Below are positions 4,927 through 35,220 of a stretch of DNA of 35,220 nucleotides, piece after piece; the stretch's first letter is position 1; the number at the start of each line of letters is the position of its first letter. The notes below the pieces were generated by a model, which had not been told where the DNA came from, did no database searches, and saw only the letters and a program-made list of their open reading frames with translations. This DNA is from Saprospiraceae bacterium (lineage in GTDB: Bacteria > Bacteroidota > Bacteroidia > Chitinophagales > Saprospiraceae), in contig JAIPBL010000067.1 of assembly GCA_021739645.1 (NCBI GenBank), positions 1-35,220 on the forward strand. Reading direction: 5' to 3'. Position numbers and translations under genes: made by a program.

Positions 4927-7900
4927 TCACTCCACTAGCACAAACCCCGCCCACTGGTACGGATTAATGAACCGCTCCCGCATCTCCTGCTGCGTAGTGC
5001 GGAAGGCATCGGGAATGCTCATTTTCCCTTCCAACCAGTTTTTGTAAAAAGTGGTCATAAACACCGAAGTCTCCTGGTCGGGCACTTGCCACAGCGACAT
5101 GACGAGGTACTTCGCCCCGGCAATCTTGAAGGCCCGTTGGAGGCCGTACACGCCTTCGTTTCCTTGGATGTCGCCAAGCCCAGTCTCACAGGCGGAGAGC
5201 ACCACCAGTTCCGTATTCGAGAGGTTCATCTGGCTGATTTCGTAGGCGGTGAGGATGCCATCGTCCATGCCCGGCTTGAGCGGCTTTCCGGTTTGCCAGG
5301 CGTGGTTGCCCCCGGTGAGGATAAGGCCGGAGCGTATCATGGGGTGGTCGGAGATTTTGAAAACAGACTCATCCGATTGCGGATTTCGGATTGCGGATTG
5401 CGGGTCGGGGAAGAAGAAGCCGTGGGTGGCAAGGTGCAGGATGCGTGGGGATGGCTTGTCTTTCCCGATGGTTTTGAAGGATTCTTCTGAGGCCGCATCG
5501 CTTGAAAACATTTGCGATGAAAATTTCGACTTTTGGAGGAGCGAATGGATGCTTGAAACTTCTTTTTCCGTGCCCGGCAGGTAGCCCCAACTTTCTCCTC
5601 GTTGCGGTAAACTGCGGTCGGCGTAGGTGAATGAAAGTTCTGAATGTGCCGTCAACATATCTTGCGATGTCGAATTCTGCACAAAAAAGGTTGTGTCCAT
5701 TTCATATTGGATGCCGCCGAAAAGTAATGCCTCGTTGGTTGCATCAGATTTGGTCAAATCCGGTACGACCAATGAACGGGTGCTGCCAAGCCGAACGAGT
5801 TGGAATTGGTCTGAAAGGATACCAACCCTTTTTCCCTCTTTAAGGGAAGGTATTGGAACCGCATCGAAGTTTATGCGGTGCAGCAAGCCGGAAGGTGAGA
5901 AATAAACTGTTTTTACATTTTTAAGCAAGCTATCCAATGGCTGCCAGATGAGTTCATATAAACCTGTAAGCTGAGTCGTTTTTAGCGGCTGGGCACCCCG
6001 GCTGTAGATTTGGGCGAACAGTTCGCTGCGTTGCTCTTTGTTGTCAGGTGTAAGCACTGCGGTCAGTTGTTTTTCCTCAAAGAGCGGGATGAACAATGGT
6101 TGTACCTCTCCCGGTCGCAGCAGCAGGGCAGCGTACATCGTGCTGTCGGTTTGTTTTTTATCCCAGTAACGATAATGAACAAATTCAATGGCCGCCTCAC
6201 CCGTTTTTAGGGTAGCCTGCACCTCTTGCCAGTTTACCTGTCGCCGGGCCTCGCCGAAACCCGCCACGGTACGGGTAAGGTCTTTTTCGAGCTGATCGGC
6301 TTTCTCTTCGAGGCCTGCTATTAAACTGTTGTCCCTGTCGGAGACGGGCAGGGAATACTGAGCGGCAAGTCGGCGTCCGTAGCCTTTCAGTTGATTGAAT
6401 GATTCGGTAGCTTCCGGACTTGAATTTGCCAAATTTCTCAGATGATTGGAGGCATTGAGCAGGAACCCTTTGTAAAAAAGGCTGTTGTCAAAACACGCAG
6501 CGGTTAGCATTCCCCTGCCGGATAGTTGGTTAAAAGAAAGTGTATGGTGCTGGTCTTCTGAAAAGGTGTTCAGGTAATTGTTCAATTCCTGTTCCGATAA
6601 GTGGAGCAGGGCCTTTGCTATCAGGGTTTGATTGACAGTGGATAGCTCCAAATAGTAAGGTTTGCCTTTTTCGTATTGGCCCATTGCCCCATACAGATTC
6701 GCCAAGCCGTTCAGGCTTACTGCATAATCGGGATGTTCCTTTCCCAAGGCTTTTTCACGGATGGCTTTGGACTCGAAAAATAATGGTTCAGCTTTTCCGT
6801 ATTGGCCCATGTTCGAGTACAGAACCGCCAGGTTGTTCAGGCTTCCTGCATAAAGGGGATGTTCCTTTCCCAATGCTTTTTCCCGTATGGCTTTGGCTTC
6901 GAGGTAGCGTGTTTCGGCTTTTCCGTATTGGCCCATGTTATGATACAGGCTCGCCAGGTTATGCAGGCTTTGGGCATATTCGGGATGTTCCTTTCCCAAT
7001 GCTTTTTCTAGGATGACTATAGCTTCGAGGTAGAGCGGTTCAGCTTTTTCGTATTGGCCCATGTTATGATGCAGAACCGCCAGGTTGTTCAGGCTTTGGG
7101 CATAATGTGGATGTTCCTTTCCCAATGCTTTTTCCCGGATGGTTTTGTCTTCGAGGTAGAGCGGTTCAGCTTTTTCGTAGTTACCCATGTCCGAATACAG
7201 ATTCGCCAAGGCGCTCAGGTTTCTGGCATAATCGAGATGTTCCTTTCCCAATGCTTTTTCCCGGATGGCTTTGGCTTCGAGGAAGAGTGTTTCGGCTTTT
7301 TCGTATTGGCCCATGTCCTGATACAGATTCGCCAGGTTGTGCAGGCTTGCTGCGTAATCGGGATGTTCCTTTCCCAATGCTTTTTCCAGGATGGTTTTGG
7401 CTTCGAGGTGGGGTGTTTCGGCTTTATCGTATTGGCCCATGTACCAATACAGACTCGCCAGGTTGTTCAGGCTTGCTGCATAAAGGGGATGTTCCTTTCC
7501 CAATGCTTTTTCCCGTATGGCTTTGGCTTCGAGGTAGAGCGGTTCGGCTTTTTCATATTGGCCCATGTTCTCATACAGGTTCGCCAGGTTGTTCAGGCTT
7601 TGGGCATAATCGGGATGTTCCTTTCCCAATGCTTTTTCCCGGATGGCTTTGGCTTCGAGGTGGAGTGTTTCGGCTTTATCGTATTGGCCCATGTGCCAAT
7701 ACAGACTCGCCAGGCTGTTCAGGCTTGCTGCATAAAGGGGGTGTTCGTTCCCTACCGTTTTTTCCCGGATGGCTTTGGCTTCGAGATAGAGTGTTTCGGT
7801 TTTTTCGTATTGGCCCATGTCCGAATACAGATTCGCTAGGTTGAGCAGGCTTCCTGCATAATCGGGATGTTCCTTTCCCAATGCTTTTTCTCTGATGGCT

Positions 7901-9143: not shown

Positions 9144-11243
9144 ATGCTCGACACCGCCATCGAATACCTCCGGGGCGTCGGTACCGTGAAGGCCGACATG
9201 CTCAAAAAAGAACTCGCCATCCACACCTTCGGCGACTTGCTACATGCGTTCCCGTACCGATACGTGGACAAGACCAAGTTCCACAAAATCAATGAGTTAA
9301 GTGAGGAAAGCGGCGAGGTGCAACTCAAGGGCATCCTCCGCAAACTGGACATCCTCGGCGAGGGCGGAAAGCGGCGGCTCGTCGGGCGGCTGCGGGACGA
9401 GACGGGCGTCGTCGAGCTGGTCTGGTTTCAAGGAGTTTACTGGCTGGAAAAGAACCTGAAAGTCGGTGCGCCGTATGTTGCCTTCGGCAAAATCAACAGC
9501 TTCAACGGGTTCATCAATATCACCCACCCCGAACTGGAGGAGGTGAACGAGGAAAACAAAGCGGCCGACCTGACCTTCGCCCCGGTCTATCGCAGCACGG
9601 ACAAACTGAACGCCAAGGGCCTGGAAGCCAAGGGCCGCCGTCGGCTCACCGAGGCGCTCTTCGAGAAGCTGACCCCAGCATTTTTACCCGAAAACCTGCC
9701 CGATTATCTGCTCCAAAAAATGCACTTGCCCAGCCGCTACGATGCGCTGCGCTGGATTCATTTTCCCCCCAGCCAAAAAGAACTGGACGCCGCCACCAAC
9801 CGCCTGAAATTCGAGGAGCTTTTTTTCCTCCAAATGCGCCTGTTGCAGAGCAAACACCGCCGCAAGGCCGCCATCAAGGGCTATGTCTTCGGAAAAGTCG
9901 GCGAGCATTTCAACCAATTTTACAAGGAAAAACTGCCGTTCGAACTCACCGGCGCACAGAAACGGGTCGTCAAGGAAATTCGTGCCGACCTTGGCGCTGG
10001 CATCCAGATGAACCGCCTCGTGCAGGGCGACGTGGGCAGCGGAAAGACCGTTGTGGCGCTGCTCTCCATGCTGCTGGCGCTCGACAATGGCTACCAGGCC
10101 TGCCTCATGGCGCCCACCGAAATCCTTGCGCAGCAACACCTCATCGGCATCAGCGAGCTGGTGGAGGGGCTGGGCATCCGGGTGGACTACCTCAGCGGGA
10201 GCATCAAGGGGAAGAAGCGAGAAAAAATACTGGCCGACCTCAAAAATGGCGAAATCCACATCCTCATCGGCACGCACGCCCTCATCGAGGACTGGGTGGA
10301 GTTCCAAAACCTCGGCCTCGCCATCACCGACGAGCAGCACCGATTCGGGGTGGCACAACGGGCTTCCCTTTGGAAAAAAAGCAAGCCACTGCCCCCGCAC
10401 GTGCTCGTGATGACGGCCACGCCCATCCCCCGCACCCTCGCCATGACGCTCTACGGCGACCTCGACGTTTCGGTGATTGACGAGCTGCCGCCGGGCCGCA
10501 AGCCCATCACCACCACCCACCGCACGGAGAACCACCGGATGCGGGTCTTCGGTTTTATGAAGGAGGAGATTGCGAAGGGCCGCCAGATTTACGTCGTGTT
10601 CCCGCTCATCGAGGAGAGCGAGAAGATGGACCTGAAAAACCTGATGGAAGGCTACGAGGTGCTGAGCCGGGAATTCCCCATCGAGCACTACCAAATCAGC
10701 ATCGTGCACGGCAAGATGAAGCCGAAGGACAAGGACTTCGAGATGCAGCGCTTCGTGCGGGGCGAGACGCAGATCATGATTGCGACCACCGTCATCGAGG
10801 TGGGGGTGAACGTGCCGAACGCCAGCGTGATGGTCATCGAAAACACCGACCGCTTCGGACTCTCGCAACTGCACCAGCTACGGGGCCGGGTGGGCCGGGG
10901 TGCCGACCAGAGCTACTGCATCCTCCTAACCGATTTCAAACTGAGCACCGACGCCCGGGAGCGCATCGCCACGATGGTGCACACCACCGACGGCTTCGAA
11001 ATCGCTGAGGCCGACCTGCGCCTGCGTGGCCCCGGCAATATCGAGGGCACCCAACAAAGCGGCCTGCTCAACCTGCACATCGCCGACCTGGGGCGGGATG
11101 GGGAAATCCTGAAAACGGCTCGGGAACTGGCCCTGCGGATTTTGGAGAAGGACCCGGAATTGCTGCATCCGCTGAACGGGATGATGCGGGAGCAGTTGGA
11201 GAAGGATACGAAACGGGGGAAGCATTGGGGGAGGATAAGTTGA
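9144..11243 (+). CDS. recG: ATP-dependent DNA helicase RecG
   Basis: It has 699 residues, the normal length for Bacteroidota RecG. The N-terminal wedge/OB domain (residues about 1-230) recognises branched DNA. The helicase motor has Walker A GDVGSGKT (295-302), motif II DEQH (396-399), motif III MTATPIPRT, motif V MIATTVIEVGVNVPNA and motif VI QLRGRVGRG. The C-terminus reads LRLRGPGNIEGTQQSG ... LNGMMREQLEKDTKRGKHWGRIS. RecG remodels stalled replication forks and recombination intermediates in the cytoplasm. The start is the ATG at 9144, which gives the standard MLDTAIEYLRGVG beginning. The last 78 bp are duplicated 5.4 kb downstream (16561-16638), marking the gene end as an insertion boundary. 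Confidence 0.97.
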   Translation: MLDTAIEYLRGVGTVKADMLKKELAIHTFGDLLHAFPYRYVDKTKFHKINELSEESGEVQLKGILRKLDILGEGGKRRLVGRLRDETGVVELVWFQGVYWLEKNLKVGAPYVAFGKINSFNGFINITHPELEEVNEENKAADLTFAPVYRSTDKLNAKGLEAKGRRRLTEALFEKLTPAFLPENLPDYLLQKMHLPSRYDALRWIHFPPSQKELDAATNRLKFEELFFLQMRLLQSKHRRKAAIKGYVFGKVGEHFNQFYKEKLPFELTGAQKRVVKEIRADLGAGIQMNRLVQGDVGSGKTVVALLSMLLALDNGYQACLMAPTEILAQQHLIGISELVEGLGIRVDYLSGSIKGKKREKILADLKNGEIHILIGTHALIEDWVEFQNLGLAITDEQHRFGVAQRASLWKKSKPLPPHVLVMTATPIPRTLAMTLYGDLDVSVIDELPPGRKPITTTHRTENHRMRVFGFMKEEIAKGRQIYVVFPLIEESEKMDLKNLMEGYEVLSREFPIEHYQISIVHGKMKPKDKDFEMQRFVRGETQIMIATTVIEVGVNVPNASVMVIENTDRFGLSQLHQLRGRVGRGADQSYCILLTDFKLSTDARERIATMVHTTDGFEIAEADLRLRGPGNIEGTQQSGLLNLHIADLGRDGEILKTARELALRILEKDPELLHPLNGMMREQLEKDTKRGKHWGRIS
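11166..11243 (+). repeat. recG 3' end, left copy of a 78-bp direct repeat
   Basis: It aligns with 16561-16638 at 73 of 78 positions, including 44 identical bases (11169-11212 against 16564-16607). Both copies end at the recG stop codon. It may be an attachment-like boundary of the accessory island. Confidence 0.9.
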
Positions 11244-11250
11244 GGGGCAA

Positions 11251-12465
11251 ATGAGTAGCAATGTACCAATCTCGTACAAATTGAAATTCTTAATCACAAA
11301 TGATACTCTTAATTGCTTTAAAAGCCAAGCGATGGACATTTCAATCAAACCAGTAGATTTTCGACTGCCTGGGTGCAATTTCTTATTAATTTATAACGAA
11401 ACCTTATGTGTCATTTCTAACAATGAAACTTATGCGAATTTGCTTTTAATTGATACTGTGTCCTACCAAGAAATAGGAAACATTTCTATCCCAGTATCTT
11501 ATGACATCACAAAAATGGATGACAATTTGGTGATAAGGCATCAAAAGGCAGGCATAACCATTATCGATGCTCATGATTATCACGCGGTTGAGTTTGACGA
11601 TGAAGTCAGTTTCCGCCAGCCTATCTTGTTTAATGGAATATGGATAGCCCAAGTTTCACTACCAAATCATTACGACTGCAAGTTCGCATTCTATGATTTT
11701 GAAACAAAGAACTTGTACTTTAAGGATATTCCCTACAGGGTTCATCAAGGTATTATTTATAGAAATAAGAAAGTTGAGGGGCGGAACTATATTGAAAGAT
11801 ATGATGAAAAAACACAACATCGTCTTTGGGAGTTTGAACTTTCACAGTTCGATAAAATTGTTAGAAATCAAGAAAGACCGGGACACTGTTTAATATTTGA
11901 AAGAGTTGACAACATAATTTTAGCCGACACACTCAATGGAACCATCATAGCTTTAGATGTAAATACAGGCCAGCTTATCTGGCATATTGATACAGAATCT
12001 GACCCTGTCCTATCTGCTTACCCGGCCACGAAAGAAGGGAGATATGTCAAAATTAGCGACGGATTATCTCATGGTTACCTTCATATTAGTCCGGATGGTA
12101 AAAAATTGATGAGCCTGATAGGTTGTTATTATGTTGAGATAAATGTTTACTCCGGGATTGTTTCAAAAGTCGTAGACAAAACGAATGAATGGGCGCCGAA
12201 AAACTATTTTGTGTATCAAGGTTTTGCGGTGGAAAACAACTACTTTTATTTCTATTCACATCACGGCGTTGGCATCTTCGATACAGAAACATTGGACATT
12301 TCCGCCTATTACGATGCGGAAGAAACAATGAAGCCATTACGGACAGAGTTTATGAAAAATCAAGGTGGGCCTGTTTATCACGACAAAAAAATCTACATTG
12401 TTAATTCAGAACAAGAACTTCAATTTTTCGAAATCGAAGACTTACTAGTACAAACAATTGAATAA
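11251..12465 (+). CDS. Cytoplasmic PQQ-like beta-propeller protein, function unknown
   Basis: It has 404 residues and no signal peptide or membrane segment. Short beta-rich blocks recur, the clearest being NGTIIALDVNTGQLIWHIDTES (about residues 230-250), typical of a PQQ/WD-like propeller blade; other blades are degenerate. It begins 7 bases after the recG stop. An alternative start at 11332 (MDISIKPVDF) would drop a 27-residue weakly conserved-looking leader. The gene is clearly richer in A+T than recG, which suits acquisition from elsewhere. Comparable stand-alone propellers occur as immunity proteins in polymorphic-toxin loci, but nothing here proves that role. A hairpin just after the stop may end its transcript. 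Confidence 0.65.
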   Translation: MSSNVPISYKLKFLITNDTLNCFKSQAMDISIKPVDFRLPGCNFLLIYNETLCVISNNETYANLLLIDTVSYQEIGNISIPVSYDITKMDDNLVIRHQKAGITIIDAHDYHAVEFDDEVSFRQPILFNGIWIAQVSLPNHYDCKFAFYDFETKNLYFKDIPYRVHQGIIYRNKKVEGRNYIERYDEKTQHRLWEFELSQFDKIVRNQERPGHCLIFERVDNIILADTLNGTIIALDVNTGQLIWHIDTESDPVLSAYPATKEGRYVKISDGLSHGYLHISPDGKKLMSLIGCYYVEINVYSGIVSKVVDKTNEWAPKNYFVYQGFAVENNYFYFYSHHGVGIFDTETLDISAYYDAEETMKPLRTEFMKNQGGPVYHDKKIYIVNSEQELQFFEIEDLLVQTIE

Positions 12466-12479
12466 TAAAGGAACCCGTT

Positions 12480-12502
12480 GTGGCCAGTTTGCAACTGACC
12501 AC
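12480..12502. terminator. Hairpin after the propeller gene
   Basis: Arms GTGGCCAGTT and AACTGACCAC (one mismatch) with a 3-base loop begin 15 bases after the stop. No T-run follows. A partial copy (GTTGTGGTCAGTTTGAACT) lies near 13834-13852, so this may be a dispersed repeat. Confidence 0.45.
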
Positions 12503-12533
12503 CGCAGTCCACATGAACTATCCCTTTTTCCCT

Positions 12534-12541
12534 TACTTTTG
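12534..12541 (+). promoter_or_regulatory. -7 box of the first toxin-antitoxin pair
   Basis: TACTTTTG matches TAnnTTTG and lies 19 bases before the ATG at 12561. Confidence 0.5.
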
Positions 12542-12560
12542 CTAAAACAAAGTTTCAGAA

Positions 12561-12776
12561 ATGCAACCCAACCCAACCATAAAAGAAATCAGCAACTTGG
12601 TCTCCCAGCTTTCCGAAGCCGACCAAGCGGCGCTGCTCAAAGCGCTAAAAGCACAGGTGCTGCTTTTACAAGCCCGTCGCCTTGATGAATCCGTGAAACC
12701 GAACCAATTGGAGATGGAGAAGATAGTGGAGGTGGTTCGCAAAGTCCGCCAATTCCACTCCGATGCAGCCGCTTGA
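12561..12776 (+). CDS. Putative antitoxin of a PIN-domain toxin
   Basis: It has 71 residues, mostly helical, with a conserved-looking EISNLVSQLSEADQAALLKALKAQVLL stretch and a basic/acidic helix at the end. It overlaps the following PIN gene by 14 bases, the arrangement expected for translationally coupled antitoxin-toxin pairs. No DNA-binding motif is recognisable. The assignment rests on position, size and overlap, not on a named family. The antitoxin would bind and block the PIN ribonuclease and perhaps repress the promoter at 12534. Confidence 0.65.
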   Translation: MQPNPTIKEISNLVSQLSEADQAALLKALKAQVLLLQARRLDESVKPNQLEMEKIVEVVRKVRQFHSDAAA

Positions 12777-13188
12777 AGTCGTACTCGATACCAATATCTG
12801 GCTTAGGTACATTCTCAAATCGCAATTGGAGAAACTCACCTTGCTCATTTTGGAAAATGACTTGACCGTTTATTCCTCTGAGCGCTTTATCGCAGAATTG
12901 GAAGATGTACTGAAATACCCGGAAATTGCCAGCCGTTTGACCCTGCCTGCCAGCGAGTATGTTCACTTTCATCGAAATCTTGCCGTTGTTTCCCCTGTGA
13001 TGTATGCTTTTCGTGGCTGTCCAGACCCGAAAGACGATTTTTTGTTTGACCTTGCCATTTCCGCAAGTGCCACCTATCTGGTAACAGAGGATAAGCTATT
13101 GCTCGGACTTGGCTTTGTGCGGAACGTAAAGGTGATTTCACTTGCTGAGTTTTTTGACTTGCTGGAAAAAAGAAAGCCCTTCCAATAA
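12763..13188 (+). CDS. PIN-domain toxin (COG1569-like ribonuclease)
   Basis: It has 141 residues. PIN-fold acidic residues are in place: VVLDTN (Asp9), AELEDVL (Glu45), CPDPKDD (Asp91/92) and YLVTEDK (Asp110). The pattern 'DTNIWLRY ... CPDPKDDFLFDLAI ... YLVTEDKLLL' is typical of the putative PIN toxins grouped in COG1569. Such enzymes are Mg-dependent RNases that cleave tRNA, rRNA or mRNA; the target cannot be predicted. It is coupled to the preceding antitoxin gene and appears intact. Confidence 0.82.
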   Translation: MQPLEVVLDTNIWLRYILKSQLEKLTLLILENDLTVYSSERFIAELEDVLKYPEIASRLTLPASEYVHFHRNLAVVSPVMYAFRGCPDPKDDFLFDLAISASATYLVTEDKLLLGLGFVRNVKVISLAEFFDLLEKRKPFQ

Positions 13189-13225
13189 CCAGTCCTTCCA
13201 AGTCTCCCACTGCCCCAAAGCTCAA

Positions 13226-13250
13226 GCAAGTTTAGCGCAGCGTAACTTGC
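13226..13250. repeat. Palindrome with GCAAGTT/AACTTGC arms (convergent gene ends)
   Basis: A 7-base perfect inverted repeat with an 11-base loop containing AGCG lies between the PIN gene stop and the stop of the minus-strand small operon. It may be a bidirectional terminator, but no T-run is seen. It resembles the palindrome at 13860-13892. Confidence 0.5.
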
Positions 13251-13261
13251 GCCCCACACCC

Positions 13262-13525
13262 TCACGCTGCCTCCGCCATCTCCACCTGCAACGAATACCC
13301 CAACTGCTTCATCAAAGACTGGCAATCCTCCCAAGTCAAGCCAAAGCTGCGCACGTCAGCAACGCCCAACCTGCCCAGCACATCCATCAGTACATCCATA
13401 TCTTTTTCGGCAAGGTTTCCTTCCATGATGGCGTTCTCCGACCAGTCCACCAGTTTTTCAAGCGACAGCTTGTGGTTGAGATAGGCGAATATTTTCTGTG
13501 CGGCGATTTTCTTTGTTACCGTCAT
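13262..13525 (-). CDS. Small protein of unknown function, second gene of a two-gene operon
   Basis: It has 87 residues, helical and acidic (KIFAYLNHKLSLEKLVDWSENAIMEG...). I do not recognise a named domain. Its start overlaps the stop of the preceding gene by ATGA, so the two are translated as a unit. The size and tight coupling resemble toxin-antitoxin pairs; with a helical acidic sequence it would be the antitoxin-like partner, but this is inference. Confidence 0.65.
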   Translation of the reverse strand: MTVTKKIAAQKIFAYLNHKLSLEKLVDWSENAIMEGNLAEKDMDVLMDVLGRLGVADVRSFGLTWEDCQSLMKQLGYSLQVEMAEAA

Positions 13526-13773
13526 GATTCTTTCAATTTTTGATGCCCAGTGTCCACTGGATATTTCTGATGGATTTCAACGAGCACGTCATTTTCATCG
13601 TAAATCTCCTGTCGGAAAATCAGGGTTTCCTCGGCAGCATCCACTTCTTTCACGTACCGGGCTTTCCAGCCATGTTTTCCCGCAATCTCAAACCAATAGA
13701 TTCTGCCGCCGGTTGGCGTTTCATCCCAGTTTTTGAACTGTTTCTCGTTTTGTTGTTGCTTTTTGAAATCCAT
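13522..13773 (-). CDS. Small conserved-looking protein of unknown function, first gene of a two-gene operon
   Basis: It has 83 residues. After a charged leader the core GGRIYWFEIAGKHGWKARYV-KEVD, ETLIFRQEIYDE, LVEIHQKYPVDTGH is beta-rich with conserved-looking aromatic, Lys and His residues. Proteins with the ending EIHEKYPVDxGH are, as I remember, scattered in Cyanobacteria and Bacteroidota without a function. It is coupled to the 87-residue gene by a 4-base overlap. A small basic beta protein beside a small acidic helical one, inside a toxin-antitoxin cluster, makes a new toxin-antitoxin type possible but unproven. Confidence 0.65.
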   Translation of the reverse strand: MDFKKQQQNEKQFKNWDETPTGGRIYWFEIAGKHGWKARYVKEVDAAEETLIFRQEIYDENDVLVEIHQKYPVDTGHQKLKES

Positions 13774-13859
13774 TGAGGGAGCAAATTAATGAATTCTGGT
13801 AAAACAAGTTTGGTCGAAATTGGATTTATCTCAGTTGTGGTCAGTTTGAACTATCTGTC

Positions 13860-13892
13860 GTCGCAAGTATCAAGCGAAACGCCACTTGCGAC
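13860..13892. repeat. Palindrome with GTCGCAAGT/ACTTGCGAC arms
   Basis: A perfect 9-base inverted repeat with a 15-base loop lies in the gap between the minus-strand small operon and the DUF433 gene. Its arms and AGCGAAACG loop resemble the palindrome at 13226-13250, so the two bracket the two-gene operon. Confidence 0.6.
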
Positions 13893-13952
13893 TTTTCAAT
13901 TCTTCATCAGACTCGACAAACCCAGGAACTTTCCAACCTCGCCCCTCCTTCC

Positions 13953-13960
13953 TATATTTG
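13953..13960 (+). promoter_or_regulatory. -7 box of the DUF433 gene
   Basis: TATATTTG matches TAnnTTTG and lies 14 bases before the chosen ATG at 13975. This supports that start over the longer open frame beginning at 13789. Confidence 0.5.
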
Positions 13961-13974
13961 TAAAAAATTCCGCC

Positions 13975-14283
13975 ATGAATCCACTGCTTGAACGCATTTC
14001 CGTCAACCCGAAAATCTGCTTCGGGAAGCCTTGCATCAAAGGCCATCGCATCTGGGTGTCTCTTATTTTGGACTTCTTGGCTGCTGGGCATGACATTGAG
14101 TACATCCTTGAAAATTACCCGCAGCTCAAGCGGGAGGATGTGCTAGCCTGCCTTGCCTATGAAGATTTGCTTGGTCAAGCCAGACACCTTGATGCTTCCG
14201 TAGAACCTATGACCGAAGAAGAAGCTGAAGATTTTGTTAGAGGCATGGAAAATGAATTCAACCAAATAGAAGGTAGATGGTAA
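13975..14283 (+). CDS. DUF433 family antitoxin (orphan)
   Basis: It has 102 residues from the ATG at 13975, where the family consensus begins: LLERISVNPKICFGKPCIKGHRI, then a winged-helix-like region VSLILDFLAAGHDIEYILENYPQLKREDVLACLAY. The frame is open 62 codons further upstream, but that part is unlike the family and includes a palindrome and the promoter box. DUF433 proteins are antitoxins usually followed by a DUF5615 Mut7-C/PIN-like toxin. None is visible: the next 87 bases hold no such gene and RhuM follows. The C-terminal tail (EPMTEEEAEDFVRGMENEF) is acidic. Confidence 0.85.
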   Translation: MNPLLERISVNPKICFGKPCIKGHRIWVSLILDFLAAGHDIEYILENYPQLKREDVLACLAYEDLLGQARHLDASVEPMTEEEAEDFVRGMENEFNQIEGRW

Positions 14284-14370
14284 TCAAGCGTTCAGTTTTG
14301 AGGTTAGCCATTTTTAGTTGAGCCAATATCAAAACCATCAAGCACAAACACTCAAGCCAGAAAAGCTAAA

Positions 14371-15375
14371 ATGCAAGACCAAAACCCACCCAACCTCATC
14401 ATCTACAACACCGCCGACGGCAAGGCTTCCGTGTCCTTACTTGCCAAGGACGGGCAGGTCTGGATGAACCAAAGCCAGTTGGCCGAACTTTTTGACACCT
14501 CAGTCCCAAACATCAACATCCATATCTCCAATATCCTGAAAGAGAAAGAGTTAGGTGTAGATTCAGTTATTAAGGATTACTTAATAACTGCCGCAGACGG
14601 CAAGGAATACAAGGTCAAATTTTATGCACTCGACATGATTCTCGCCATCGGATTCCGGGTGCGGAGCAAGCGGGGCACACAGTTCAGGATTTGGGCAAAC
14701 CGGAATTTGAAGGAGTACATGGTGAAGGGCTTCGTGATGGACGACGAGCGTCTGAAAAACCCAGACGGCAGGCTCGACTATTTTGACGAGCTGCTCGAAC
14801 GCATCCGGGACATCCGTGCTTCCGAGAAACGCTTCTACCAGAAAGTACGTGACCTGTTTTCCCTCAGCAGCGACTACGACCCCACCGACAAAGCCACGCA
14901 AATGTTCTTTGCCGAAACGCAGAACAAGCTCCTGTTCGCCGTTTCCGGCCAGACTGCCGCTGAAATCATTATATCCCGAGCAGACGCCGAAAAACCCAAT
15001 ATGGCCTTGACTTCTTGGAAAGGCTCCATCGTGCGCAAACAGGATATTTTTACCGCCAAGAATTACCTGACGGAAGATGAAATTGACACGCTGAACCGCT
15101 TGGTGGTCATCTTCCTTGAAACGGCGGAACTTCGGGCGAAAAACAGGCAGGACATACCCATGTCGTTCTGGCGAGAAAACGTGGATGGGATTTTGGCATT
15201 CAACGATAAGAAAATCCTTACTAGGGCTGGTTCCATCAGCCATTTAGCGATGGAAGAAAAAGTGCTGGAGATTTACGGCCAGTTCGATGCCCGGCGAAAA
15301 GCGTTGGAAGCCTCCACCGCCGACAAAGAAGATTTGGAGGAGTTGGAGAAGCAGGTTAAGTTGCGGAAAAAATGA
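14371..15375 (+). CDS. RhuM family protein (Virulence_RhuM)
   Basis: It has 334 residues. The N-terminal signature IIYNTADGKASVSLLAKDGQVWMNQSQLAELF-DTSVPNIN followed by VIKDYLITAADGKEYKVKFYALDMILAIGFRVRSKRGTQFRIWAN is that of RhuM proteins, first noted on a Salmonella pathogenicity island. The N-terminus looks like a DNA-binding domain of the phage antirepressor sort. The middle (residues about 135-290) has a Fic-like helical look in related proteins, but no Fic HPFx motif is seen. The function is not established; the family is common in mobile and defence islands. The C-terminus is a charged helix. A fragment of a second RhuM start follows at once. Confidence 0.9.
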   Translation: MQDQNPPNLIIYNTADGKASVSLLAKDGQVWMNQSQLAELFDTSVPNINIHISNILKEKELGVDSVIKDYLITAADGKEYKVKFYALDMILAIGFRVRSKRGTQFRIWANRNLKEYMVKGFVMDDERLKNPDGRLDYFDELLERIRDIRASEKRFYQKVRDLFSLSSDYDPTDKATQMFFAETQNKLLFAVSGQTAAEIIISRADAEKPNMALTSWKGSIVRKQDIFTAKNYLTEDEIDTLNRLVVIFLETAELRAKNRQDIPMSFWRENVDGILAFNDKKILTRAGSISHLAMEEKVLEIYGQFDARRKALEASTADKEDLEELEKQVKLRKK

Positions 15376-15464
15376 TAGTACCTCTGTTGAATCCTCGAAA
15401 AGGCCAGGTTTGGAGGAACCAAACCCAGTTAGCGGAGTTTTTTGACATTTCTGTTTGCAATTTC
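15372..15464 (+). pseudogene. Fragment of a second RhuM N-terminus
   Basis: The frame from 15372 reads ...RKGQVWRNQTQLAEFFDISVCNF. This aligns with KDGQVWMNQSQLAELFDTSVPNI of the intact neighbour (positions about 14446-14512) but differs at many codons. The similarity stops near 15464 and the frame soon runs into a non-matching tail. It is therefore a decayed or recombined remnant of another rhuM gene, not a fresh duplication. Confidence 0.7.
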
Positions 15465-15511
15465 AGGCTTCATTTTCGGCAACAATTTTTCGTTTATTTC
15501 GTTTATTTCCT

Positions 15512-15519
15512 TATTTTTG
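15512..15519 (+). promoter_or_regulatory. -7 box of the HTH/PIN toxin-antitoxin pair
   Basis: TATTTTTG matches TAnnTTTG, 19 bases before the ATG at 15539. A run of three GTTTATTTC-like units lies just upstream. Confidence 0.45.
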
Positions 15520-15538
15520 AACTTCAAACTTGTTTATC

Positions 15539-15994
15539 ATGAAGACATTCGAAAATATCGAAAGGCCCACCAAGCAAGAACAGGAGACCGCCTTGGCCTC
15601 CTACGATGCCCTCAATGCCATGCTCAATGAACTGGACATTGATGCGCCGGAGATTGAAATTGAGGAGACCGGACAAAAGATAAAAATCCCCTTGCGGGCG
15701 CTGAAGCTGCTTGCCAAGATACTGGAAGCAACAAGCAAGGGCCAGCCCATATCAATTGTCCCGATAGCTACGGAACTTACCACGCAGGCTGCGGCGGAAA
15801 TGCTCGGCTGTTCAAGGCCACACCTCGTCGCCCTACTCGAATCCGGTGAAATCCCATTCACAAAAGTTGGAAAGCACAGAAGGGTCAGGTTTGAGGACGT
15901 GAAAAACTATAAGGCGAAACTGCGCCAGAACCGGAAGGCAATCCTGGTCGAAATGATGCAAGGAGACGAAGAATACGGGCTGTATGATTCATAG
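15539..15994 (+). CDS. HTH (excisionase-type) antitoxin
   Basis: It has 151 residues from the ATG at 15539; the frame also opens at a TTG three codons earlier. Residues about 80-135 form a helix-turn-helix of the MerR/excisionase type: TTQAAAEMLGCSRPHLVALLESGEIPFTKVGKHRRVRFEDVKNY. The first half is a helical region with VPLRALKLLAKIL-like packing that probably binds the toxin. It overlaps the downstream PIN gene by 11 bases. This antitoxin type with a longer PIN toxin is a recurring pair. It likely represses its own promoter. Confidence 0.88.
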   Translation: MKTFENIERPTKQEQETALASYDALNAMLNELDIDAPEIEIEETGQKIKIPLRALKLLAKILEATSKGQPISIVPIATELTTQAAAEMLGCSRPHLVALLESGEIPFTKVGKHRRVRFEDVKNYKAKLRQNRKAILVEMMQGDEEYGLYDS

Positions 15995-16547
15995 CATAAG
16001 GTTTACCTGCGTACTGGATACGAACGTCATCTATCCGTTCGAAGTCCGGGATATGCTGCTCTGGTTTGCGCACTACGAGCTGTTCACACCGAAGTGGAGC
16101 AAGCACATTTTCGATGAATGGGAGGATGTGATGAGGAGGCATAACGTACCTGAAGATGTGATAGCCAAACGCATTCAAGCGCCGAACAAGGCGTTCCCCG
16201 ATGCATTGGTCACTGACTATGAAGTCCTCATTGATTTTTTGGACTTGCCAGACCCGAAGGACAAACATGTGCTTGCCGCCGCCATAAAGTCCAACGCCAA
16301 TATTATCGTTACGAACAACCTGAAAGACTTCCCATCCGAATTACTGGAAACTTATGGCTTGTCGGCAAAAAGTCCAGATGATTTTTTGACCGATATTATT
16401 GACCTTAACCATGAGATTGCCGCAAGCGCTTTCAGGGAACTTGTTTTATACCGAAGGAACCCTGATTTGGATGAATTTCAGGTGTTGGAACGTTTGCGGA
16501 AAAATGGACTAAGGGATACAGCAGATTATCTTCATGCCATTCTCTAA
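15984..16547 (+). CDS. PIN-domain toxin paired with the HTH antitoxin
   Basis: It has 187 residues. PIN residues visible are FTCVLDTNVIYP (Asp12), HIFDEWEDVM (Glu45), DLPDPKDKHVLAAAI (Asp93) and IIVTNN (Asn111 region, where the third acidic residue of many PINs is replaced). The extra C-terminal helices (residues 125-187) are usual for this longer PIN group. It would be a Mg-dependent ribonuclease held inactive by the overlapping HTH antitoxin. Its stop is followed after 13 bases by the duplicated recG 3' end, so the gene sits at the island edge. Confidence 0.85.
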   Translation: MIHSIRFTCVLDTNVIYPFEVRDMLLWFAHYELFTPKWSKHIFDEWEDVMRRHNVPEDVIAKRIQAPNKAFPDALVTDYEVLIDFLDLPDPKDKHVLAAAIKSNANIIVTNNLKDFPSELLETYGLSAKSPDDFLTDIIDLNHEIAASAFRELVLYRRNPDLDEFQVLERLRKNGLRDTADYLHAIL

Positions 16548-16560
16548 GAAGCCGTTTGAA

Positions 16561-16638
16561 CACCCGCTGAACGGGATGATGCGGGAGCAGTTGGAGAAGG
16601 ATACGAAGCGGGGGCGGCATTGGGGGAGGATTAGTTGA
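16561..16638 (+). repeat. Duplicated recG 3' end, right copy
   Basis: It matches 11166-11243 at 73 of 78 positions and in the same orientation. It still codes for HPLNGMMREQLEKDTKRGRHWGRIS and a TGA. Weak similarity extends a little upstream (AAGAAGCCG against AAGGACCCG). The four residual codon changes are mostly silent or conservative, so it probably comes from a related recG allele and not from a recent copy error. Confidence 0.9.
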
Positions 16639-16648
16639 AAAAAGTGAC

Positions 16649-16656
16649 TATTTTTG
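16649..16656 (+). promoter_or_regulatory. -7 box of the third toxin-antitoxin pair
   Basis: TATTTTTG matches TAnnTTTG, 14 bases before the ATG at 16671 and 10 bases after the recG fragment stop. Confidence 0.5.
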
Positions 16657-16670
16657 TGAAAACTTCGAGC

Positions 16671-16922
16671 ATGACAGAAATTGCGTTGTATCAATCCGTT
16701 TTGCAGAAACTTGGGCAGATTACGCCCCAAGACATGCCTGTATTGGATGCCTTTTTGACGAATCTGGTTAGTAAAGAAAAGCAGGCAAAGAAGAAGCCTC
16801 AAGCATTAAAATCACCTACTTACTGGCTGGAGCAACTTGCCAAATCAGGTGCCTTTGCCGACATCGAAAACCCCGTGGAATGGCAGCAACAGCTACGCCA
16901 AGACCGCCAACTTTCAAGATAA
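16671..16922 (+). CDS. Putative antitoxin upstream of a frameshifted VapC
   Basis: It has 83 residues from the ATG at 16671 (MTEIALYQSVLQKLG); the frame is open 12 codons further up but would then include the promoter box. The helical N-terminal part leads to a C-terminal YWLEQLAKSGAFADIENPVEWQQQLRQDR segment, the sort of tail that wraps round a VapC-type PIN toxin in Bacteroidota pairs. The next gene starts 6 bases after its stop. If the toxin is dead, this antitoxin is now orphan and may persist as an anti-addiction factor (inference). Confidence 0.7.
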   Translation: MTEIALYQSVLQKLGQITPQDMPVLDAFLTNLVSKEKQAKKKPQALKSPTYWLEQLAKSGAFADIENPVEWQQQLRQDRQLSR

Positions 16923-16928
16923 CCCACC

Positions 16929-17311
16929 ATGCTGATTGACAGCAATATTATCATTATCGTTCCAAGCTGACCAATATTGGGGTCTTGAATTATTTGAGGA
17001 CACATGAAGGCGACCTTTGTGTGTCCATCGTATCAAAAATCGAAGTCTTGGGTTATCACCAATTGAAGCAGGTGGAAAAGGAGTTCCTGAACAATTTTTT
17101 TTATTCAATACCCATTCTACAACTTGATACCGCAGTTGCTGAAAAGGCCATTGAATTGCGGCAGCGGAAGCCAATGTCGCTAGCAGATTCCATATTGGCT
17201 GCCACAGCCCTTGCCAACAACTTGCCGCTTTTTACGGACAACATCAAGGACTATGCTGGAATCAAAGGGTTGAAGCTAATTTCTGTAGCAGATGCCTTAA
17301 AAGAAAGTTAG
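16929..17311 (+). pseudogene. VapC-like PIN toxin, frameshifted near its start
   Basis: The ATG at 16929 begins MLIDSNIIII, the classical VapC start with Asp4, but this frame stops at 16968-16970. From about 16955 another frame continues YRSKLTNIGVLNYLRTHEGDLCVSIVSKIEVLGYHQL (Glu of IEVLGY), then PMSLADSILAATALANN (Asp) and LPLFTDNIKDYAGI (Asp), and ends at 17311. One missing T in the ATT-TAT junction near 16955 explains the break. The rejoined product would be about 128 residues, normal for VapC. It is either a true inactivating mutation or a sequencing error; no standard slippery heptamer is seen. Confidence 0.82.
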
Positions 17312-17520
17312 TTTTTGGGAGAAGAACCCGGTACTCCAGCACCTGCTGAATGTGTTGTACTAGCTACCTAAATGCGCCCAATTATAGCGGTCCAATGTCG
17401 GGAGACATGCCTTTTTCGATGTGCATTCTTGGCGGTGACAACTTATCATTCACTCATTACTAAACCGCTTCACCCGCCGCAGATTGAACCTGCCCACCAC
17501 TAGACTATCTTTAACAGGCC
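17312..17520. other. Gene-free stretch between convergent units
   Basis: Between the broken vapC and the terminator at 17521 I see no supported gene or RNA. Short open frames here do not resemble proteins. The full gene-free gap runs to 17621. Confidence 0.5.
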
Positions 17521-30897: not shown

Positions 30898-31107
30898 CCT
30901 GAGTGTAATGGATGGTAGTGACGAGTTGCCTTATTGCCCCGTAGGGGCATTATGTCGGTAGTGGTATTGCCCGAAACTCCGCTTCCGTGCCGTAGGTACG
31001 GGAAACACATCCCGTACCTACGGCACGGAGTCCAAGGGATGATTTGCATTTCTACCGACATCTCGCCCTCTACGGGGCAGCCATCACTTCCATCCGTTAC
31101 AGTCAGG
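30898..31107. mobile_element. MITE-like palindromic element with flanking direct repeats
   Basis: It is 210 bp long. The terminal inverted repeats (CCTGAGTGTAATGGATGG... and its counterpart ending at 31107) match at about 21 of 24 positions. The whole element folds on itself. Inside are GCCCCGTAGGGGC (30936-30948), ATGTCGGTAG arms, and a central stem with perfect 20-base arms (30984-31003 and 31010-31029) round a 6-base loop. It is flanked by CGTATT(CC) on both sides (30892-30899 and 31108-31115), which looks like a target-site duplication. It carries no gene, and the rest of the 354-bp gap shows only the regulator's -7 box. Confidence 0.8.
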
Positions 31108-34808: not shown

Positions 34809-35043
34809 GGGCTTTCTTATAAAAATCGTGCATGCCCGCTTAAGGCCCCATCGGGGCGAAATGTCGGTAGCTATTGCCCCGAACCATTGCTTTCCGTGCC
34901 GTAGGTACGGTATATTTCCGCCGAATGTCCCTCCCGGTAGCTATCGGGATACGGCACGGAGTCCCCTTGATAATGAAATTGCTACCGACATCTCGCCCCG
35001 ATGGGGCGCCAATAGTAACAAGGGAATTTTTATAAGAAAGCCC
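34809..35043. mobile_element. MITE-like palindromic element with perfect 18-bp terminal inverted repeats
   Basis: The termini are GGGCTTTCTTATAAAAAT (34809-34826) and its exact reverse complement (35026-35043). Further in are matching arms of 27 bases with one mismatch (34845-34871 and 34981-35007), each holding GCCCC-N3-GGGGC and ATGTCGGTAGC. The core has GTGCCGTAGGTACGG and, on the other side, GATACGGCACGGAGTCC. The inner blocks have the same order and direction as in the element at 30898-31107, but the outer termini differ. No target duplication is evident. Short open frames across it are a by-product of the palindrome. Confidence 0.75.
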
Positions 35044-35220
35044 TTGTAATAAGTGTTTGGCTCTGCCATTGCCTTTCCATTTTTCTCTACCGTACACTTT
35101 TTTAAACCGTAGAAATAAAGCAGTTCTTTGAAAATGAAAAAACAATTTCAATTGCGTGTTTAAGGCAGTATTGGACCAACTTTTTGCCAATGGTAAAAAT
35201 GGATAAATCCATTCTGTCTT
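35044..35220. other. Right-edge stretch, no supported gene
   Basis: Only short frames are present: a nine-codon frame from 35134 (MKKQFQLRV), and a plus-strand frame MVKMDKSILS that runs off the edge from about 35190. Either could be the start of a gene outside the window, but too little is visible to call. Confidence 0.3.

Follow-up and report, generated by a model that had tools for sequence, protein, structure and literature searches.

Leftover 3' ends of recG and other genes separate toxin-antitoxin-like cassettes in Saprospiraceae genomes

Arrays of orphan immunity genes of the type VI secretion system (T6SS) in Vibrio cholerae have been proposed to arise by homology-facilitated illegitimate recombination, and the authors liken them to integrons (Kirchberger et al. 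2017, PMC5361080). Such recombination joins foreign DNA to the chromosome by one homologous and one illegitimate end (PMC3240628). Here we analyse a stretch of 35,220 nucleotides, referred to throughout as the window, which comprises positions 1-35,220 of contig JAIPBL010000067.1 (labelled C71) of a Saprospiraceae bacterium (assembly GCA_021739645.1, 6.16 Mb; G000 below). Its whole recG gene is followed at the 3' end by accessory, mostly toxin-antitoxin (TA)-like DNA, as the original prediction held, and this DNA is interrupted by leftover copies of the recG 3' end. We call such a copy, found downstream of its own anchor gene, a "tail", and the same layout recurs at uvrA and at a helicase gene.

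Two other known arrangements bear comparison. In integron arrays small cassettes stand in a row, each closely trailed by a repeated element, in an order that depends on the strain. Integrative elements that enter the 3' end of a gene keep that gene whole on insertion, and its end is found a second time beyond the element. For homology-facilitated illegitimate recombination itself, de Vries and Wackernagel (2002) and Prudhomme (2002) are reportedly the references. The T6SS arrays resemble the present locus in having a conserved anchor, a new module beside it and units of foreign origin, with older units, and once also a leftover 3' end, moved downstream (PMC5361080); here too an anchor gene is followed by non-homologous modules with leftover anchor 3' ends. 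The loci differ in that the anchor here is a housekeeping repair gene, restored intact, rather than cargo, that the cargo is TA-like pairs rather than effector plus immunity genes, and that several anchors occur per genome, in another phylum. The recombination process is described from transformation and conjugation experiments (PMC3240628), whereas here it is proposed from sequence. Our literature search, conducted mostly at abstract level, returned no description of gene-tail arrays at recG, uvrA or housekeeping genes.

The array in the window consists of the following features (aa, amino acids).

9144..11243, plus strand: recG, intact anchor gene (NCBIfam RecG equivalog)
11166..11243, plus strand: tail 1, the recG 3' end, repeat copy 1 (direct-repeat search)
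11251..12465, plus strand: 404-aa protein, weak beta-propeller (PQQ_2 at 24.3 bits, under the 27.6 cut-off)
12561..12776, plus strand: small partner of the PIN gene, possible antitoxin (no Pfam match)
12763..13188, plus strand: PIN_3 protein, predicted toxin (Pfam PIN_3; TIGR00305)
13262..13525, minus strand: second gene of a two-gene unit (no Pfam match; similar DNA in G001, loci L033 and L034)
13522..13773, minus strand: first gene of the two-gene unit (no Pfam match)
13978..14283, plus strand: DUF433 protein (Pfam)
14371..15375, plus strand: RhuM family protein (Pfam)
15372..15468, plus strand: second RhuM gene, present as a 5' stub (by eye)
15539..15994, plus strand: HTH_17 protein, predicted antitoxin (Pfam)
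15984..16547, plus strand: PIN_3 protein, predicted toxin (Pfam)
16561..16638, plus strand: tail 2, leftover recG 3' end, repeat copy 2 (repeat search, BLAST)
16671..16922, plus strand: small partner gene of the pair TA-b (same unit 3' of recG in G001; no Pfam match)
16930..17311, plus strand: PIN gene of TA-b (the PIN match belongs to the 127-aa homologue in G001)
17313..17357, plus strand: tail 3, partial recG 3' end, cut short on its 3' side (search with relatives' recG ends)

A single direct-repeat family occupies positions 10800-17200, formed by 11166-11243 and 16561-16638. The copies are 78 nt long, identical at 73/78 positions (94%) with a fully identical run of 44 bases, 5395 apart, and both end in TTGA (stop codon), so that the repeat first described at the recG stop is confirmed as described. 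The left copy comprises the last 25 codons and the stop of an intact 699-aa RecG, which matches its NCBIfam equivalog at 883 bits (cut-off 711). The second copy is not a chance match, given BLAST E-values of 1e-28 to 8e-30, and the 44-base core, with up to 3 mismatches allowed, occurs only twice in the 6.16-Mb assembly. A third, 3'-truncated tail at 17313-17357 is 82-87.5% identical over 40-45 bp to recG of the relatives G011 and G006. It begins right after the PIN gene of TA-b, whose frame is broken near the start relative to the 127-aa PIN protein of G001, and after the same pair in G001 stands a fuller tail (L033 1506-1609); the structure in the window therefore reaches to about 17357. The cargo first listed was largely recovered (PIN_3, DUF433, RhuM, the RhuM 5' stub, HTH_17 and the second PIN_3), with the beta-propeller falling short of its cut-off; of the proposed two-gene operon, the minus-strand genes are present and neither has a Pfam match. 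Palindrome-like intergenic stretches with CAAGT/ACTTG were seen by eye between accessory genes, at 13217-13250 and 13858-13893.

At genus level the counts cover 14 genomes, some of which have short contigs. Extra recG tails were found in 4 of them (G000, G001, G003 and G011). Among the other ten, G005 and G012 have none or about 100 bp of sequence after recG, G013 is without a recG end, and G002, G006, G008 and G009 continue for just 2-3 kb. G001 carries three tails besides recG (L033 1506-1609, 2095-2199 and 3572-3681), and the units between them hold PIN, XisI, HicB-like and DUF6932 genes. The TA-b pair, which follows tail 2 in the window, stands directly after recG in G001 (86% DNA identity), with pieces in G012 (71%) and G006 (83%, 113 bp). 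The two tails of G003 measure about 51 bp (76% identity) and 250 bp (92%). G011 has one: its contig C484 (L044) bears the HTH/PIN pair of the window together with the tail; on C512, recG is followed by the beginning of this unit. Contig C213 of G001 (L034) shows a further 131-codon recG end, either a long tail or the recG of a second strain, which we did not count. The cargo differs among relatives, a comparison that the original prediction proposed. An empty site, also sought on its suggestion, was not found: a blastn comparison (E<=1e-6) of sequence to the right of the window array with the stretches downstream in 18 other sequences, several of them short, gave no match. We also observed, on L039 (3114-4365, from contig C79 of G006), pieces like the start of the window PIN pair, DUF433, RhuM and TA-b after recG, in rearranged order.

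Tails also occur beyond the genus. A search of 90 recG loci for their own tails (73 with at least 5 kb downstream; at least 6 genomes are present twice, and 11 loci with no detected recG end were left out) returned the window, G001, G003 and Flexithrix dorotheae, in which a 209-bp tail (99%) is separated from recG by a 127-aa ORF (open reading frame) and a Y1 transposase gene. This transposase gene (L161 12083-13300) has GC-rich palindromes near both sides. When 110 family genomes were searched with a recG-end profile, a second genus came to light, G134, with a tail of 111 bp (97%, left edge at -112) and a cargo of two minus-strand genes whose appearance, by eye, is not TA-like; weak matches in G065, G066, G092 and G100 were left out of the count, and inspection of the G100 contig showed no recG beside its match. 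In G145 a contig of 4068 bp starts inside one recG end and finishes just past another, the first copy being either recG or a tail, and its post-tail flanks (about 16 and 22 bases past the stop codons) stand in reversed order relative to those of G134. Contig ends of this type fit repeats that break assemblies. In G021, contigs C199 (end of L169) and C385 (start of L168) have exactly 55 bp in common. This shared stretch finishes at the recG stop, and the branch that it makes in the assembly may point to a further recG tail. An assembly or binning artefact of metagenome contigs would be suggested by such breaks within tails in G145 and G021 and by the fact that most of the relatives are metagenome-assembled genomes (MAGs). 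The window, however, shares junctions with G011 and with G001, which are independent assemblies, and one case lies in a named isolate, F. dorotheae DSM 6795, and we give this explanation almost no credence.

The layout is shared by other genes. In 753,762 bases of G000 (451 ORFs of at least 150 aa, including the window, which was chosen for its repeat), a survey for gene ends repeated downstream returned recG, uvrA (two tails) and a 1386-aa SNF2-type helicase (125 bp, 90%), two doubtful genes having been set aside. Before each uvrA and helicase tail there is a small gene and then an HNH, PIN or ParE gene. Among the 14 genus genomes, extra uvrA tails number two in G000, three on C29 and two on C530 in G001, and one each in G005 and G006, with no uvrA-end match in G013; a DNA search added a weak tail in G008 (49 bp, 78%) and one after a uvrA-like gene of G004 (89 bp, 97%). 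As read from the proteins, the uvrA arrays have an HNH pair in both G000 and G005 and one PIN pair in both G000 and G001. Among the matches listed for uvrA ends in 46 family genomes, short extra tails appear in G000 only; one further match, G035:C47:12132-12446, is a copy of the uvrA end in inverted orientation that points toward the gene. No tail of the SNF2-type helicase was found outside G000 among the 14 genomes. The island was first seen as one unit bracketed by two recG copies, a view that gives way here to several tails per locus and several anchor genes. Repeated tails with differing left edges at several genes indicate that the 78 bp are not the dedicated attachment site of one element, and we reject a single integrative element on account of the third tail and the multi-tail arrays in relatives.

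Similar surveys covered two other genomes. In G003 (406,689 bases, 272 ORFs, the recG locus being deliberately included) tails stand at recG and at a 1290-aa gene; by eye, a possible second, decayed tail of the latter follows a 155-aa ORF, from position 6048 on in L263 (G003:C19). G096, an outgroup of another genus (400,000 bases, 229 ORFs), has one candidate tail, L277 (53 bp, 85%). As a control we searched with gene starts, which yielded two matches in G000 (the first adjacent to the gene it came from, the second within a different ORF), one gene start with a match in G003, and 7 matches from 3 genes in G096. The contrast between gene ends and gene starts is suggestive only, as the numbers are small. 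Survey matches discarded were C-terminal domains of the type IX secretion system (T9SS; L235, L247), a 46-bp tandem (L230), a repetitive protein (L266, 30 matches) and a 73% match (L258).

On balance we lean towards serial capture at gene 3' ends by one homologous and one illegitimate joint, with later exchange by way of the tails. The tails, their alleles, the cassettes shared or relocated between species and the same layout at several genes are observed directly; the entry route, the illegitimate joint and the order of events we infer. Incoming linear DNA from a related bacterium would carry a recG (or uvrA) end followed by a TA pair or other genes. It would recombine homologously within the resident gene, and its non-homologous far end would be joined illegitimately in the last 50-250 bp of that same gene. 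The gene would thus be made whole with the donor 3' end, the old 3' end of the recipient would remain as a tail of variable length, and any DNA downstream would be displaced to the right by the new insertion. Once a cassette lies between two tails, ordinary recombination through these tails could add, delete, convert or reorder cassettes between species, and TA pairs would accumulate because their loss is costly. The RhuM 5' stub, which stops at the point where similarity to the post-recG sequence of G011 starts (15469), looks like an illegitimate cargo end.

The edges and alleles of the tails bear on this reading. Left edges of recG tails lie at about -53, -78, -104, -107, -110, -112, -156, -209 and -250 before the stop, those of uvrA tails at about -57, -64, -82, -84, -87, -124 and -126 with one beyond -190, that of the helicase tail at -125 and that of the 1290-aa gene of G003 at -73. 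Right edges are at or near the stop codon, which is where interspecies homology would end. Stop codons, gaps or truncations in several tails (tail b of G001, G006, tail 3 of the window, G011) indicate that tails are not maintained as coding sequence. Of six genus recG tails compared, three are nearest to another species: L033_c (86% to G012, 73% to its own recG), L033_b (best match G003) and L044_t (92% to G012/G008, 86% to its own). The right copy in the window, taken at first for a foreign recG allele, may be foreign or resident in origin: tail 2 is 94.9% identical to recG of G008/G012 and 93.6% identical to the resident recG, so that a single base separates the two comparisons, and tail 2 and the resident recG share LNG in place of LNV, a change missing from the aligned relatives. 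Foreign alleles are clearer in G001 and G011. Variable left edges, right edges near the stop, partly foreign tails and moving modules together fit capture, and the number of anchor genes is not what one enzyme with one attachment site would predict. Of the two routes first envisaged, recombination at recG is the better reading.

Local duplication of the gene end by slippage or tandem copying, with cargo added later by unrelated events, would account for the two tails nearest their own recG (L036_d and L033_a), for the 99% identity of the Flexithrix copy and for the LNG shared by the window tails. It is already weakened by the three tails nearest other species and is further opposed by the same cargo-plus-tail unit in several species, so that we hold it to be highly improbable.

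Cargo content and the proteins encoded in the arrays invite comparison with integrons and 3'-end elements. A type II TA layout, a toxin-type domain with a small partner, is found for PIN_3, for HTH_17 with PIN_3 and for ParE_toxin, where TA function is predicted only; the HNH pair is TA-like by layout alone, and the HicB-like and XisI genes have no scanned partner. Like integrons, the arrays have small cassettes in variable order with a repeated element close behind; unlike integrons, the repeated element consists of part of the protein gene upstream, is locus-specific and varies in length, the separators being recG or uvrA coding ends. No IntI was found beside the arrays among the ORFs scanned, where the upstream gene is recG, uvrA or the SNF2-type helicase. 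As with 3'-end integrative elements the gene is intact on one side and a copy of its end lies on the other, but the units are small, the copies many, the repeat variable and the genes several. Unlike both systems, the arrays show no integrase in the scanned ORFs: no integrase or recombinase domain occurs in ten window ORFs, a scan from which the TA-b PIN gene and the RhuM stub were left out, and no integrase domain was found in the scanned array proteins of relatives, a subset of the array ORFs, the Y1 transposase of Flexithrix being the exception. The expectation that the island lacks an integrase is upheld in these ten ORFs.

Several observations weigh against capture. Four recG tails from two genera (G001 and G134) share left edges at -104 to -113, within about 9 bp, and three uvrA tails of G001 start at approximately the same base; in two of these, cassettes that differ are followed by the same 12-bp gap. 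Such sharing would not be expected from random joints. In 13 of 18 units measured from ORF lists, no more than about 40 bp separate the cargo stop codon from the tail, which is more compact than random ends would be (the count leaves out G145, G008, G004, the third G001 uvrA tail and L044, which has the same junction as tail 2 of the window). The two tails nearest their own recG, and another that is tied within one base, would also be given by local duplication. Tail b of G001 is more decayed than the more distal tail c, contrary to a strict order of older units to the right. The window recG, compared with 10 relatives (one partial), shows no switch of identity in its last 110-300 bp, and we reject a mosaic recG in the window. 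Finally, most Saprospiraceae records are draft assemblies or MAGs.

Shared edges and compact units would be better explained by either of two alternatives. In the first, a recombinase encoded elsewhere would target the recG or uvrA end and insert cassettes that lack an integrase and carry a gene-end copy with them. The recurrent edges in the recG tails of G001 and G134 and in three uvrA tails of G001 agree with this, as do the toxin stop codons close to the tails, the restored gene and the integron-like appearance, whereas left edges differ widely elsewhere, different genes are used and the scanned subset of array ORFs lacks an integrase domain. We regard such a recombinase as unlikely while keeping it in view. 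A fixed attachment site was also considered for the shared edges (four recG, three uvrA tails) and was dropped, as the other edges differ. In the second alternative, a circle consisting of one gene tail and a TA pair would integrate by a single homologous crossover and exit likewise, which would account for compact units and for an edge recurring in one lineage and would fit tail alleles that differ along an array. No circle was seen, however, and circle formation requires an extra step. Nor does the recG-tail pattern have a match in IMG/VR; 25 plasmid and 6 phage records gave matches at 60-80%, and in the 6 phage and the best 10 of the 25 plasmid records these were RhuM, PIN, HTH or unnamed genes, none with a recG tail. 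These matches lend no support to a carrier element, and we judge circles to be improbable.

Some features of base composition and of other repeats were noted alongside. In 328 ORFs of G000 of at least 250 aa, C at third positions drops from 0.34 to 0.14 and G rises toward the stop over the last ~100 bp; within the last 30 bp, G-rich runs reach about 4 times the frequency that they have further upstream, and G096 is similar. The recG and uvrA tails fall within this zone of C loss and G gain. Outside the array, the window contains a 68-bp repeat (79%; 30936-31001 and 34840-35220), perhaps an interspersed intergenic repeat.

Going beyond serial capture, we tentatively raise the possibility of an integrase-free cassette system in Saprospiraceae, for which the 3' ends of recG and uvrA would be standing landing sites. 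TA cassettes carrying about 50-250 bp of gene end would renew the gene and push older cassettes outward, either by recombination through the tails or with the help of a trans-acting recombinase. That recG, uvrA and a helicase gene share this layout within one genome speaks for a process of the lineage rather than an accident. If this is true, the tails would be a readable record of the past 3' ends of a gene. The spread of TA genes in chromosomes without transposases or integrases has so far been poorly explained, and the arrays would offer a testable answer, in which the ends of housekeeping genes serve as anchors and the tails mark captures and sometimes the donor species. The signature, a gene end repeated downstream of its own gene, could be used to count captures of foreign DNA in other genomes.

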